A stretch of 32,497 bases of DNA from Eubacteriales bacterium (GTDB lineage Bacteria > Bacillota > Clostridia > Oscillospirales > CAG-272), in NCBI GenBank assembly GCA_018383975.1, contig JAHAZT010000010.1, positions 1 through 32,497 of the forward strand, given 5' to 3'. The translations under genes were made by a program, and so were the position numbers. Below are positions 4,430 to 32,497 of the stretch, piece after piece; position 1 is the stretch's first letter, and the number at the start of each line of letters is the position of its first letter. The notes under the pieces are model-generated. The model saw only the letters and a list, made by a program, of their open reading frames with translations, made no database searches and had not been told where the DNA came from.

Positions 4430-5569
4430 ATGATATATCTTGACAACGCCGCCACGACCTTTCCGAAGCCATCCTCGGTGGCAAGGTCGATGGCGAAATG
4501 CATAAAGGAATACTGCGGAAATCCGGGAAGGAGCGCGCATCCGCTCGCATTGAAGTCCGCAGAGGCGGTATTTGATACGAGGAGCGGAATATGCGCCCTT
4601 TTCGGAACGTCAAAGCAGGAAAACGTAATATTTTCATATAATGCCACGCATGCGATAAATAAGGTTCTTTCGGGACTTATACGCTCCGGAGACGGAATTA
4701 TAACAACAAATATGGAGCATAACAGCGTGCGACGTCCGGTTGCGAATCTGTGTGCGATGCGGGGCGCGGAATATTCCGTGATAAACGCGCTCGCACCTGA
4801 TGACGCTCTTATCTCGGAGCTTGAAGCAAAAATCACACCGAGAACGAAAGCAGTCGTGACGATACACGCGTCAAACATATGCTCTGCGTCTCTTCCCGTT
4901 GCGAAAATCGGAGAGGTCTGCCGAAGGCGAAGACTTATTTACGTCGTCGACGCATCGCAGAGCGCAGGCATATACGATATAAACCTCCCCCGCGACGGAA
5001 TAAGCGTGCTGTGCGCTCCGGGTCACAAGGGGCTGTACGGTCCGCAGGGAACGGGATTTGCCGTCTTTTGCGACGATTTTGATTTTTCCCTTCTGTCGCC
5101 GACGGAATTCGGCGGAAGCGGCTTTGCCTCCGCGGATATAACAATGGGGCATACGCCGCCGGAATCATACGAGGCAGGCACGCTGAACGTCCCCGGCATT
5201 GTCGGGCTGGGAGAAGGGATAAAATATATCCGCTCCGTCGGCACGGAAAATATTCTTTCACACGAGAAAAAACTTTTTGCTCTTGCGAGGGAGGGACTGT
5301 CCTCCGTCGACGGAATCAAAATTTATCTGCCCGAAAGAGAAGGCGGCGTTATGCTTTTCAATTCGGACAGAATGAGCGGTTCCGCACTTTCGGCTGCTCT
5401 TGCGGAAAACGGCATCTGCACGCGACCGGGACTTCATTGCGCTCCGACGGCACACGCTGCCGTCGGCACGGGCGGCGACGCCGTCCGTATCAGCTTTTCG
5501 ATTTTCAACGGCGCGGAGGATATTCATTCGCTCGTGACGGCTGTCGGACGGATAACCGCACAAAAATAG
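4430..5569 (+). CDS. Cysteine desulfurase family protein (class V aminotransferase)
   Basis: 379-residue PLP enzyme that releases sulfur (or selenium) from cysteine (or selenocysteine). It starts MIYLDNAATTFPKP, as in the IscS/SufS superfamily. NMEHNS and VDASQSAG flank the PLP site, the PLP lysine lies in APGHKGLYGPQGTG (Lys200), and the catalytic Cys337 lies in RPGLHCAPTAH. The short active-site loop and GLHCAP motif resemble the clostridial family described by TIGR01977 rather than true IscS. No iron-sulfur scaffold gene is adjacent; the neighbour is DUF3343, so the sulfur acceptor may be that protein. The ribosome site is weak, so it may rely on coupling to the upstream gene. Its TAG stop abuts repeat block A. 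Confidence 0.87.
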   Translation: MIYLDNAATTFPKPSSVARSMAKCIKEYCGNPGRSAHPLALKSAEAVFDTRSGICALFGTSKQENVIFSYNATHAINKVLSGLIRSGDGIITTNMEHNSVRRPVANLCAMRGAEYSVINALAPDDALISELEAKITPRTKAVVTIHASNICSASLPVAKIGEVCRRRRLIYVVDASQSAGIYDINLPRDGISVLCAPGHKGLYGPQGTGFAVFCDDFDFSLLSPTEFGGSGFASADITMGHTPPESYEAGTLNVPGIVGLGEGIKYIRSVGTENILSHEKKLFALAREGLSSVDGIKIYLPEREGGVMLFNSDRMSGSALSAALAENGICTRPGLHCAPTAHAAVGTGGDAVRISFSIFNGAEDIHSLVTAVGRITAQK

Positions 5570-5926
5570 GGATTTGCAAGTATGCGAAGCACGCTTGCAG
5601 GCCTCGCCGAGACGGGTTCGGAAACCGCGCAGCGGTTGGAGGGATTTGCAAGTATGCGCAGCATGCTTGCAGGCGTCGCCGAGACGGGTTCGGAAGCCGC
5701 GCAGCGGTTGGAGTGTAAAAAAAACAATCCCTCAGTCGGCTTGCGCCGACAGCTCCCTTTACACAAGGGATTTGCAAGTGTGCGAAGCACGCTTGCAGGC
5801 GTCGCCGAGACGGGTTGTAAAAAAACAATCCCTCACCGCCTGCGGCGGTCCCCCTCTCTCACAAGAGAGGGCTTATTAAAATCAATCCGCGGCTCTGCCG
5901 CACCTTTTCTCTTTGATCTTCTCTCT
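5569..5926 (+). repeat. Modular hairpin repeat, block A
   Basis: Intergenic block of shuffled modules. Two 72-nt units stand in exact tandem (5569-5640 and 5641-5712); each starts GGGATTTGCAAG and contains a GCAAG...CTTGC hairpin plus a GCCGAGACGGGTT core. A linker with hairpin GTCGGC-TTGC-GCCGAC (about 5730-5752) follows, then a third shortened unit (5767-5816), a CCGCC-TGC-GGCGG hairpin, a CCCTCTCT-CACA-AGAGAGGG hairpin and a tail CTTATTAAAATCAAT with CT-rich sequence. The same modules recur in blocks B and D, some inverted. The block begins at the last base of the desulfurase stop codon. The long open frame through it is an accident of the 72-nt (24-codon) unit length. Confidence 0.85.
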
Positions 5927-6001
5927 TCTCTCCTGAATAACTTCCCTCCCGTATGGCGAAAATCAATTTACAAAGATTTTTGCTGTTCAGGAGGAATTTT
6001 T

Positions 6002-7219
6002 ATGAAAAAAATATTTGTTTTCTTGTATGCGCTTTCCCTTATCTTCTGCATTTCGCTGACAGCCTTTGCCGTCAGTCTTTCGCCGGGGCTTGACGTCATC
6101 CGCTCGTCAATGAAAATGGTCAAAACGAGCGTCGGAGAAAATTCCGTTTCGTTTTCCGCCGCCGATTTTGAAAGCTTTCTCGGCACAAAACCGGAAAAAA
6201 TCAAAATTGTTTCTTTACCGGATGAAAAATCCGGCAGACTGATGTTCGGCGAAAAGGCGGTGTCCGCGGGGGATGAAATCAATATCGAGTCCGTTTCCGC
6301 ATTGAGGTTTGTCCCTGCGGCGAAGAACGCCTCGTCGACGTTTGAATTTTCCGTCGACGGTGACGAAAAGTTTATATGCTCCGTAAATTCCATGCCCGCC
6401 CTCAACTTCGCGCCGACGGTTTCCGATGAAAGCCTTGCCGTGGAAAAGGAAATTCCATGCTTCGGCACTCTGTCGTCCGTCGACAAGGAGGGCGACGCCG
6501 TGACGTATTTTGTCACCTCAGCCGCAAAGCACGGCGAGCTGACGCTTGACAATATAACGGGCAAATTCATTTATTCACCGGATAAAAATTTCAGCGGCAA
6601 AGACCGTTTCAGATTTGTAGCAAAGGATTATTACGGCAATATTTCAAAAGAGGCGGAGGTAAAAATCACCGTATCGAAAAGCAGTATAAAATACTGTGAT
6701 ATGGCAGGAAACGACGCATATACGGCGGCGTCCGTCCTCGGCGGAAAGGAAATTCTTCTCGGAGAAACGATTGGCGGAGAAAAATATTTTTATCCCGAAA
6801 AAACCGTCACGAGAGAAGAATTTCTCATTATGGCAATGAATGCTCTTGATTTGCCGACGGCAGATGACGTTGCAACCGCTTTTGCCGATGACGCGGGAAT
6901 TACCGCACAACGGAGAAAATATGTCACGGCGGCAGTATCGGGAGGAATAATATTCGGCGTCGACTATGAGGACGGCAAGCGTTTTGACGGTGCCTCGCCG
7001 ATAACCGCACGTCAGGCGGCAACGATCGTTTCAAGACTGATGTCCAAAACGTCGCCTTCGCTTTCGGAGGTATTGCCCGTCGCCGCGTCATGCGGCGACG
7101 AAGTGACGGACGAGGGGCTTGCGGCAATGGCGTCGCTCGGATATTTTTCGGGTATGAAAGCGGACGACACCCTCACCCGCGCCGACGCTGCAAAGATAAT
7201 TTATAAGATGATGAAATGA
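6002..7219 (+). CDS. Secreted SLH-domain protein with cadherin/Big_9-like domain
   Basis: 405-residue exported surface protein. Residues 1-23 are a signal peptide. About 125-215 carry an Ig/cadherin-like repeat (pattern DKEGDAVTYFV, GELTL, GKFIYSPDKNFSGKDRFRFVA, as in Big_9/VCBS-type tandem domains). The last ~170 residues contain three SLH-like segments, with marks such as TVTREEFLIMAMNAL, ITARQAATIVSRLM and LTRADAAKIIYKM, which normally bind pyruvylated wall polymer. The track ORF is 140 codons longer but runs through repeat block A; this ATG has AGGAGG 7 nt upstream and begins the signal peptide. It ends before a terminator and is probably monocistronic. No enzyme domain was seen. Confidence 0.85.
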   Translation: MKKIFVFLYALSLIFCISLTAFAVSLSPGLDVIRSSMKMVKTSVGENSVSFSAADFESFLGTKPEKIKIVSLPDEKSGRLMFGEKAVSAGDEINIESVSALRFVPAAKNASSTFEFSVDGDEKFICSVNSMPALNFAPTVSDESLAVEKEIPCFGTLSSVDKEGDAVTYFVTSAAKHGELTLDNITGKFIYSPDKNFSGKDRFRFVAKDYYGNISKEAEVKITVSKSSIKYCDMAGNDAYTAASVLGGKEILLGETIGGEKYFYPEKTVTREEFLIMAMNALDLPTADDVATAFADDAGITAQRRKYVTAAVSGGIIFGVDYEDGKRFDGASPITARQAATIVSRLMSKTSPSLSEVLPVAASCGDEVTDEGLAAMASLGYFSGMKADDTLTRADAAKIIYKMMK

Positions 7220-8365: not shown

Positions 8366-8502
8366 CCACTTTGCATGGCAGTATGCTGTAACTTTTTTGT
8401 GAACTGACGGTTGGTTGCCGCCTTCGGGTCAAGCGGCTCTGACGTGCCACAGGCACGTCATTCACTACCGCTCCCTTCGATTCTCCTTTATGATTGCAAA
8501 AA

Positions 8503-8535
8503 GAAAAGCACCCCTCTTTGGGTGCTTTCATTTTT
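8503..8535 (-). terminator. Terminator-like hairpin in the left ssrA 3'-end copy
   Basis: Minus strand AGCACCC-aaaga-GGGGTGCT followed by TTTCTTTTT. It is the counterpart of the real ssrA terminator and could act as a second one. Confidence 0.6.
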
Positions 8536-8650
8536 GGTGGACCCGAGGAGAATCGATTCTCGCAGGCTCGACGCCCGCTCGGTCATCGCGGCTCTGACAG
8601 CCGTCAAAGGCTGTCATTCACTACCGCTCCCTTCGATTCTCCTTTATGAT

Positions 8651-8685
8651 TGCAAAAAGAAAAGCCGCCTTTCGGCGACTTTCCT
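8651..8685 (-). terminator. Intrinsic terminator of ssrA
   Basis: Minus strand AGTCGCC-GAAA-GGCGGCT followed by TTTCTTTTT, a few bases after the tmRNA CCA end. Confidence 0.85.
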
Positions 8686-8688
8686 TTT

Positions 8689-9041
8689 TGGTGGACCCGA
8701 GGAGAATCGAACTCCTGTCCGAAAAACGATCCGCGGGGCTTTCTCCGAGCGCATTCCGTCTTTTGAAATTCCCTCCTCACAGCGCCGGCAGACAGGCTCT
8801 GTGTTTCGGTAGCTTTTTAATGCGTGACGGCGTCAAAAGCTAAAAAGCCGTTCACGTTCATCGCTGTGTTATGCCCAAACCGAAGCCGCGATACTCATCG
8901 GCAGGACACCCGCACCCTCAGGCAGCGAGAGCTAATTTGTTATTGTTAGCGTTTAATTTTAGGTTGCACAGTTTTTGGGAGCTTGTGCGGCTCCGCTCGC
9001 TTACCCTGTTTCACATTCCCCGTCGAAACCTTTACGGGCCC
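8689..9041 (-). ncRNA. ssrA: Transfer-messenger RNA (tmRNA)
   Basis: 353-nt tmRNA that rescues stalled ribosomes and tags nascent peptides for proteolysis. The 5' end GGGCCCG pairs over 7 bp (one G-U) with CGGGTCC before the encoded ACCA end. The T-arm is AGGAG-TTCGATT-CTCCT. The 5' segment GTAAAGGTTTCGACGGGG is the conserved tmRNA start. The tag frame ends ...ANNNKLALAA then TGA (8918-8950 if GCT is the resume codon); the frame stays open further upstream, so the exact resume codon is not certain. It lies 4 nt after the smpB stop, the classic smpB-ssrA order, and has its own terminator. The mature 3' end is duplicated downstream. Confidence 0.95.
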
Positions 9042-13303: not shown

Positions 13304-13680
13304 CCTACTTTTCTTTGACCGTACTTTTCTTTGAAAAGAAAAGTAGGCAAAAGAAACTTCAATTATCGGGAAGTCTGTGCAAATTTTTAATTATCTACGC
13401 AGACAGGGCTTTTGCAAAAAGGCAAAAGAAACTTCGGTTATCGGAGAGTTTGTGCAGAGTTTTCAGGCTCCCTTGTGTAAAGGGAGCTCCGCCGCAGGCG
13501 GTGAGGGATTGTTTTTTTACACTCCAACCGCTGCGCGGTTTCCGAACCCGTCTCGGCGACGCCTGCAAGCGTGCTTCGCACACTTGCAAATCCCTCTCTC
13601 ACAAGGGAGGGCTTATTAAAATCAATTCGCGCCGCAGCCGCACCGCTTCTCTTCGATTTTCTCTCTTCTTTTTTATCTCA
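13304..13680 (+). repeat. Modular hairpin repeat, block B
   Basis: Fills the gap between the manA promoter and the next terminator. In order: a partial and a full copy of the TACTTTTCTTT inverted repeat (13322-13345); two copies of a module CAAAAGAAACTTC..TTATCGG..AGT.TGTGCA; the GCTCCCTT-GTGT-AAGGGAGC hairpin (from 13466); the CCGCC-GCA-GGCGG hairpin with GAGGGATTGTTTTTTT; the GCAAG...CTTGC unit of block A in inverted orientation (about 13530-13591); and the CTCTCTCACAAG / CTTATTAAAATCAATTCGCG tail in the same orientation as in block A. No gene is supported; the track ORFs here are products of the repeat. Confidence 0.85.
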
Positions 13681-22763: not shown

Positions 22764-23066
22764 CCGTACTTTTCTTTGAAAAGAAAAGTAGGCACCGTAC
22801 TTTTCTTTGAAAAGAAAAGTAGGCAAAAGAAACTTTAGTAATCGGGGATAATTACGGCTCCTTTGTGTAAAGGGAGCTCCGCCGCAGGCGGTGAGGGATT
22901 GTTTTTTACAACCCTTCCACCACTTCGTGGTCCCCCTCCCCTTACACAGGGGAGGCTCATTTAGCCTTCTCCAGTGGGAGAAGGTGGCAGCCGCAGGCTG
23001 ACAGATGAGGTGTACTTTTGCAAAAAAACTTCAATAATCGTGTAATGTAAGCAGAATTTCAGGCAT
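22764..23066 (+). repeat. Modular hairpin repeat, block C
   Basis: Begins at the first base after the DUF6873 stop codon. Two full TACTTTTCTTT inverted repeats (22767-22790 and 22798-22821); one CAAAAGAAACTT module; a 101-nt module (22856-22956) with the GCTCC/GGAGC, CCGCC/GGCGG, CCAC-TTC-GTGG and CCTCCCC-ttacaca-GGGGAGG hairpins; CCTTCTCC-AGT-GGGAGAAGG; GCAGCC-GCA-GGCTG; ACAGATGAGG; and a decayed second CAAAA..AAACTTC module. No gene was found in this 333-nt gap. Confidence 0.85.
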
Positions 23067-32145: not shown

Positions 32146-32497
32146 CCTTCTTTTCTTCGAAAAGAAAAGTAGGCACCGTACTTTTCTTTGAAAAGAAAAG
32201 TAGGCAAAAGAAACTTCAGTTGTCGGGGAGTCTGTGCAGATTTTTAATTATCTGCACGGACGGGGTTTGCAGAAAGGCAAAAGAAACTTCGGTTATCGGG
32301 GAGTTTGTGCAGATTTTTAATTAAGCCTTCCCCAGTGGGGGATTTGCGAGTGCACGCAGTGCTCTTGCAGGCCTCGCCGAGACGGGTTTGGATTTCGCCT
32401 CCCCTGTGTAAGGGGAGGGGGACCACGAAGTGGTGGAAGGGTTGTAAAAAACAATCCCTCACCGCCTGCGGCGGAGCTCCCTTTACACAAGGGAGCC
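32146..32497 (+). repeat. Modular hairpin repeat, block D (cut by the window end)
   Basis: Begins at the first base after the proS stop. A variant and a perfect TACTTTTCTTT inverted repeat; two CAAAAGAAACTTC modules (about 32202-32245 and 32278-32323) like those of block B; CTTCCCCAGTGGGG; a GATTTGCGAGTGC unit with GCCGAGACGGGTT as in block A; then 32397-32497, the reverse complement of the 101-nt module of block C. No gene is supported in this stretch. Confidence 0.85.

Follow-up and report, generated by a model that had tools for sequence, protein, structure and literature searches.

BOX and BIME mosaics are built of short palindromic units, which form modular arrays between genes and recombine. 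In the REPIN/RAYT systems, the hairpin foot of the repeats carries an unpaired tag, GTAG (or CGTC), and the gene of a Y1/HUH transposase is flanked by the repeats (PMC8266576, PMC3733652). Here, we describe hairpin repeats found in a contig of 32,497 nt (JAHAZT010000010.1, forward strand) from the metagenome-assembled genome (MAG) of an Eubacteriales bacterium; the whole contig is referred to as the window hereafter. These repeats are like the BOX and BIME mosaics in forming modular, recombining palindromic arrays, but the sequences are unrelated, and the modules are common to the ends of a gene-bearing element. The resemblance to the REP/REPIN-RAYT system (REPtron) lies in three features: many dispersed intergenic hairpin repeats, often in inverted pairs; a gene with these repeats on both sides; and a conserved mismatch in the stem, as in the E. 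coli REP (PMC8266576). The differences are that the gene belongs to DUF559 instead of the Y1/HUH transposases, that GTAG occurs at the foot in 0 of 40 distinct ends, and that each end has two hairpins and a conserved tail, the paired ends showing a left/right polarity. As in MITEs, short non-autonomous copies retain both inverted ends of a gene-bearing relative; unlike in MITEs, target-site duplication was not detected around the elements, the ends are hairpins with free stem sequences, and a classical transposase is absent. Subterminal hairpins and the lack of target duplication are shared with IS200/IS605, whereas the single ORF here encodes a nuclease of an unrelated family (PF04480), not a Y1 TnpA, and Y1_Tnp is not associated with the ends. 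Vsr and the EDxHD homing nucleases (I-Bth0305I, PDB 3R3P) have a distantly related PD-(D/E)XK domain, but the gene considered here is placed between hairpin ends that occur in many copies per genome, apparently not in an intron.

The system works like REPIN/RAYT while carrying neither the tag nor the Y1 transposase, and it is MITE-like without target duplication. It is rather probable that the repeats derive, as gene-less MITE- or REPIN-like copies, from a small element that looks mobile and has a single gene, for a DUF559 (Vsr-like PD-(D/E)XK) nuclease; this points to a novel type of enzyme by which short repeats would be spread in bacteria. The titles and abstracts retrieved from the open-access literature, including those of 14 papers in which DUF559 is named and one in which PF04480 is named, contained nothing that ties the family to such repeats or to such an element; as far as they were searched, the DUF559 element of gut Firmicutes was previously undescribed.

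Structure of the repeats in the window

The window is one of the contigs of a 1.48-Mb MAG, in which the stretch at 5600–6000 gave 80 BLAST matches. The repeats are built on a unit of about 101 nt (e.g., 22856–22956) with two inverted ends, one left and one right. Reading inward, each end comprises an outer hairpin (GCCTCCC..GGGAGG or GGCTCCC..GGGAGC type), an inner hairpin with a variable stem, and a GAGGGATTGT-like tail. The unit at 22856–22956 (minus strand) is a complete gene-less element, having ACCAC-GAA-GTGGT in the left end and CCGCC-GGCGG in the right end, and it was matched twice by the covariance model R1 (48.8 and 48.4 bits). It folds far better than its dinucleotide shuffles (z −4.1 as RNA and −5.2 as DNA); folded as DNA or RNA, the ~101-nt unit beats all or nearly all shuffles. 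Another complete gene-less element of 101 nt is located at the contig edge (32397–32497, plus strand; R1, 48.4 and 54.9 bits), and identical copies were found on contigs C64, C69 and C78. The scored sites in the own genome were all intergenic (26/26; 10 convergent, 11 tandem and 5 divergent) and had no fixed orientation; the excess of convergent sites (10/26 vs 13/70 background gaps) is too weak a difference to build on.

The region at 5568–5873 is a mosaic assembled from ends and nested modules, one of the ends being chimeric. Its first part, read from the sequence of the plus strand, starts with copy 1 of a 45-nt nested module (5572–5616), which is composed of ATTTGC, the hairpin GCAAGTATGC/GCACGCTTGC with one A.C mismatch, and CCTCGCCGAGACGGG; this copy is preceded by GGG and begins 2 nt past the TAG stop (5567–5569) of the upstream gene. 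It is followed by a left-end type inner hairpin (AACCGC-GCA-GCGGTT, 5623–5637), nested copy 2 (GTATGC/GCATGC and CGTCGCCGAGACG, 5644–5688), and a second copy of the left-end type inner hairpin (AGCCGC-GCA-GCGGTT, 5695–5709), which reflects a 72-nt unit repeat. At 5711–5733 (plus strand), the tails of the left-end and right-end types are joined (GAGTGTA..ACAATCCCTC). The right end at 5725–5771 (minus strand; R1, 45.2 bits) has a tail, the inner hairpin GTCGGC-TTGC-GCCGAC (5735–5750) and the outer hairpin CTCCCTTTACACAAGGGA (5753–5770), whose outer arm is split by nested copy 3 (GTGTGC/GCACGC, 5770–5814, plus strand). A second tail junction (GGGTTGTAAAAAAACAATCCCTC, 5812–5834, plus strand) leads into the chimeric right end (5826–5872, minus strand; R1, 22.7 bits), in which the tail and CCGCC-TGC-GGCGG (5836–5848) are fused to another outer hairpin, GCCCTCTCTTGTGAGAGAGGG (5852–5872). 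A second mosaic, located at 13466–13595 (minus strand; R1, 54.9 bits), contains a right end with the CCGCC stem (13466–13511), a left-type inner hairpin (13526–13540) and a nested module (13547–13591). Two further outer-end types were seen in the own genome, namely GCCCTCTCTTGTGAGAGAGGG and GCCTTCTCCAGTGGGAGAAGG with a GGATGAGGTGT tail (window 5852–5872 and 22964–22984; loci L034 and L038), and the GCCTTCTCCAGTGGGAGAAGG-type end resembles the ends around other DUF559 genes (L099 and L103).

The 45-nt module has the form ATTTGC-hairpin-GCSTCGCCGAGASGGG. It was found after GGG in nearly all of its 42 own-genome copies, and it sits within outer arms, tails and other repeats; in the window, one more copy (32342–32386, plus strand) is placed right before the terminal element. 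One clean in-genome pair of empty and filled sites was found for this module: GTGGTGGAAGGG|TTGTAAAA and the identical sequence with the 45 nt inserted. The module is limited to the own genome and one congener, in which it is diverged and has a different paired stem. CGTC is present only within this module, in a paired state.

Paired changes in the variable stems

The preliminary description assigned GTCGGC-TTGC-GCCGAC to block A and CCGCC-TGC-GGCGG to blocks B, C and D. The former is indeed present in block A (5735–5750), on the 3′ side of CAATCCCTCA and on the 5′ side of AGCTCCCTTTACACAA. The latter, or its complement, was found in the other blocks (13489–13501, 22879–22891 and 32462–32474) but also at 5836–5848, that is, block A has both stems. 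The right-end inner slots of the own genome, collected from the sequence stretches around the BLAST matches, numbered 31, and they carried ACCGCCTGCGGCGGAG (15 times), ACCGCCTTCGGCGGAG (5 times) or AGTCGGCTTGCGCCGACAG (11 times). The stem was CCGCC/GGCGG (loop TGC or TTC) in 20 of them and GTCGGC/GCCGAC in 11. Since these two alleles differ in length and no intermediates were found, the stem change in the own genome is explained by whole-stem replacement, and the swapping of whole stems that had been proposed is supported to this extent.

The arms of the GCAAG...CTTGC hairpin, which had been described as changing together, do so with one exception: among 42 own-genome copies, the variable pair was G-C in 29, A-T in 12 and a mixed A.C in 1 (Fisher p = 1e-9, for copies that are mutually non-independent). 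The sole mixed copy is the first one in the window (5572–5616, GTATGC/GCACGC). An additional co-change was observed in a neighbouring hairpin, between CGTC GCCGA GACG and CCTC GCCGA GAGG, for which 26 G-C, 14 C-G and 6 mismatched pairs were counted in the own genome.

Of 59 relatives, 27 had similar ends, most of which differed in their inner stems. Covariation across many copies, to which the preliminary description had looked for a decision, was clearly seen, and the pairing of the inner slot is maintained. In the covariation set A2 (40 distinct ends from elements linked to DUF559, with an alignment guided by sequence only), pairing in the two hairpins was 94.6%, as compared with 42–57% in slid registers. 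Two-sided changes occupied 95 cells against 32 expected by shuffling, and the covariation score was 0.419 against 0.114 for shuffled data, a value reached by 0 of 500 shuffles. When the slot was counted from both anchors, without alignment, the positions paired in register and in no other (z 9.4 and 8.2; 0/2000 permutations), and a run of at least 4 pairs was present in 80% of the 153 distinct slots from all loci (11% after shuffling). Shared descent inflates these pairing counts, yet it cannot alone explain stems of 16–34 nt with unrelated sequences between fixed flanks.

The mismatches in the stems are strand-specific (G.A 47 vs A.G 2; G.T or T.G 9 vs C.A 1). The mismatch in the left-end stem, with G in the 5′ arm and A in the 3′ arm, is conserved: it occurs in 18 of the 40 aligned ends and accounts for 47 of 62 isolated non-pairs. 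Because of this strand-specific asymmetry, a symmetrical cruciform is disfavoured; in addition, at each of the two ends it is the inward-reading strand that the sequence favours, and a single RNA is hence not the simplest answer. Thus, while the preserved pairing and the stem swapping stand, an RNA or cruciform structure, which had been offered as an explanation, is not the best reading, and the units are better regarded as the ends of a DUF559-nuclease element. In A2, the innermost pair of the outer stem was also found to co-change with one tail base (columns 8, 16 and 51; 29 TA/A, 11 CG/G and no exceptions), as would be seen if the tail had to match the outer stem; base pairing between the tail and the outer 5′ arm would need a shifted register between the variants.

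The DUF559 element and its nuclease

The DUF559 loci were fetched independently, by family and later by alignment in named genomes. A DUF559 gene was found at the right end in a congener and in many relatives, its 3′ end being overlapped by that end or separated from it by a few bases. The full element is arranged in the order left end, DUF559 ORF and right end, with a single gene of ~120 codons in a unit of ~445 bp (mostly 442–475 bp). The ATG is located a few bases past the left-end tail, and the stop codon lies inside the right end, which encodes the last codons of the ORF (...EQSLSQLR and the stop). Inverted-repeat scores of at least 20 were found around 58 of 101 DUF559 genes, as compared with 7 of 366 controls shifted by 700–900 bp; some DUF559 genes had one recognisable end or none. 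The polarity of the ends hardly varies: the GCC type is on the left in 28 cases vs 4, and the GGC type is on the right in 31 vs 2. In the window, each gene-less unit retains one left-type and one right-type end, and it relates to the DUF559 element as a MITE relates to its parent. The base at +1 after the right-end outer hairpin is T in 73% of cases, and T runs often follow. In Faecalibacterium prausnitzii A2-165, a DUF559 gene is reported to adjoin the mam gene (PMC8836110).

No target duplication was found around the elements (1.20 observed vs 1.11 ± 0.10 shuffled), and the search for an empty site of the main element with the joined flanks of the L121 insertion found none. In one family, a dispersed repeat of ~125 nt often adjoins the right end (right flanks of L121, L106, L127 and L128). 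It contains CTTGTCAA..TTGACAAG, GCATTTGTG..CACAAATGC and AATACGGCATA..TATGCCGTATT and ends with AACTGTCCTTTA, and it may belong to the element or be a target that the element prefers.

The ORF of the element belongs to DUF559 (PF04480, 6e-29), a family of Vsr-like PD-(D/E)XK nucleases, and the protein of the congener scored 100.4 bits against the curated cut-off of 20.6. The closest solved structure is the endonuclease-like protein 3HRL (2.7e-21), a weak structural match was obtained with the mobile intron protein 3R3P (E = 0.0064), and acidic and His residues are conserved in the nuclease set A1. Using a covariance model of the end, we searched 245 genomes of the order: ends were found in 106, DUF559 in 63, and both in 56. 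The ends were present in 56 of the 63 genomes with DUF559 and in 50 of the 182 without it (odds ratio 21; Fisher 4e-18, the kinship of the genomes being ignored). The same test with Y1_Tnp gave an odds ratio of 1.9, or of 1.4 (not significant) for the genomes with at least 10 ends. A REP/RAYT origin was rejected, as an association of Y1_Tnp with the ends was lacking in the 245 genomes. There were 13 genomes that had at least 10 ends but no DUF559 match. The distances of the outer hairpin and tail follow those of the nuclease (Mantel r 0.78 for the left and 0.71 for the right; permutation maxima 0.22 and 0.30), and the inner slot tracks them less (0.53 and 0.28, respectively); this correlation could partly come from the common descent of the gene and the ends within one element. 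The DUF559 nuclease is the most likely enzyme of the element.

The DUF559 gene was not found in the own MAG, which is 92.6% complete and whose contigs break at these repeats. The reason may be that contigs terminate in the repeats (the window, for example, has a copy at its end) or that the gene has been lost. Many of the own-genome contigs were seen to break at these elements, and DUF559 copies may be absent from the assembly.

Possible mechanism and competing explanations

In the mechanism that we propose, the nuclease, acting in cis or in trans, would recognise the outer hairpin and the tail from their sequence, and for the inner hairpin it is probably the paired shape that mainly counts. 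Nicking or cutting at the ends would then allow short copies to be spread or exchanged. Since pairing alone would be required of the inner stem, whole stems could drift and swap, and both arms would change. In the own genome, the 45-nt hairpin module may have been inserted at GGG sites within the ends, and recombination between modules may have given rise to the mosaic at 5568–5873. The strand-specific mismatches fit the reading of one folded strand, or of an end in a fixed orientation, better than a symmetrical cruciform, and the lack of target duplication is more in line with a single-strand or cut-and-repair mode than with a DDE transposase. As neither an empty/filled pair nor a target duplication was found for the main element, we infer its movement from its dispersal, and we also infer that the nuclease moves the repeats. 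There is an even chance that the DUF559 nuclease, on its own, mobilises the ~445-bp element that encodes it and also, in trans, many gene-less copies of 100 bp, by recognising the structured hairpin ends.

Alternatively, a different enzyme, for instance a Y1/HUH (REP/RAYT or IS200-like) transposase, might move the ends in trans, and DUF559 would then be a passenger, or else a nuclease with a resolving or protecting role. In having hairpin ends but no target duplication, the elements do resemble the IS200/IS605 and REP systems (PMC8266576), and five end-rich genomes lack DUF559 but have Y1_Tnp. However, Y1_Tnp (PF01797) is absent from the own genome, its association with the ends is weak (odds ratio 1.9 vs 21 for DUF559), DUF559 is the sole ORF between the ends, and the end type tracks the nuclease; we regard this explanation as unlikely. 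Selection on transcripts, with the hairpins acting at the RNA level as terminators, mRNA stabilisers or riboregulators, is quite improbable, even though the folds are strong, many copies lie near terminators, and the T runs after the right-end outer hairpin could terminate the DUF559 transcript. The scored sites are intergenic in mixed orientation (26/26), the two ends, with their inward-favoured strands, cannot both act in one transcript, and the presence of the repeats follows DUF559; moreover, at the gathering score of the Rfam families, only tmRNA and tRNA were found in the window, and the repeats had no match.

A purely mutational origin of the perfect palindromes, by quasi-palindrome template switching or gene conversion and not by selection, would account for the changes in both arms, the replacement of whole stems and the rarity of mixed forms. 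Such homogenisation would nevertheless erase a mismatch like the G/A conserved in the left-end stem, and the stems vary widely in length and sequence while the flanking outer hairpin and tail are fixed. Hence, this explanation is very doubtful, and the derivation of the repeats from a DUF559 element is preferred. Linking the repeats to one gene family would provide a testable role both for them and for DUF559, which is still a "protein of unknown function" in Pfam. If the nuclease moves the repeats, it would represent a new class of enzymes spreading non-autonomous repeats, parallel to RAYT but with a nuclease fold of the repair or homing type. If its sole action is true, a transposition or recombination system outside the DDE, Y1/HUH, serine and tyrosine recombinases would have spread through gut Firmicutes.

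Such hairpin repeats litter the genomes of gut Clostridia, break assemblies and create spurious ORFs. In the window, an open frame (5582–7219) crosses the repeat block and continues into a gene that starts at 6003 (secreted and SLH-like by eye), and annotation pipelines could predict a protein with a false extension there. It was also found that the 3′ end of the tmRNA gene (8689–9041, minus strand) and its flank are duplicated ~155 bp away, the two copies lying at 8457–8560 and 8613–8710 of the window.
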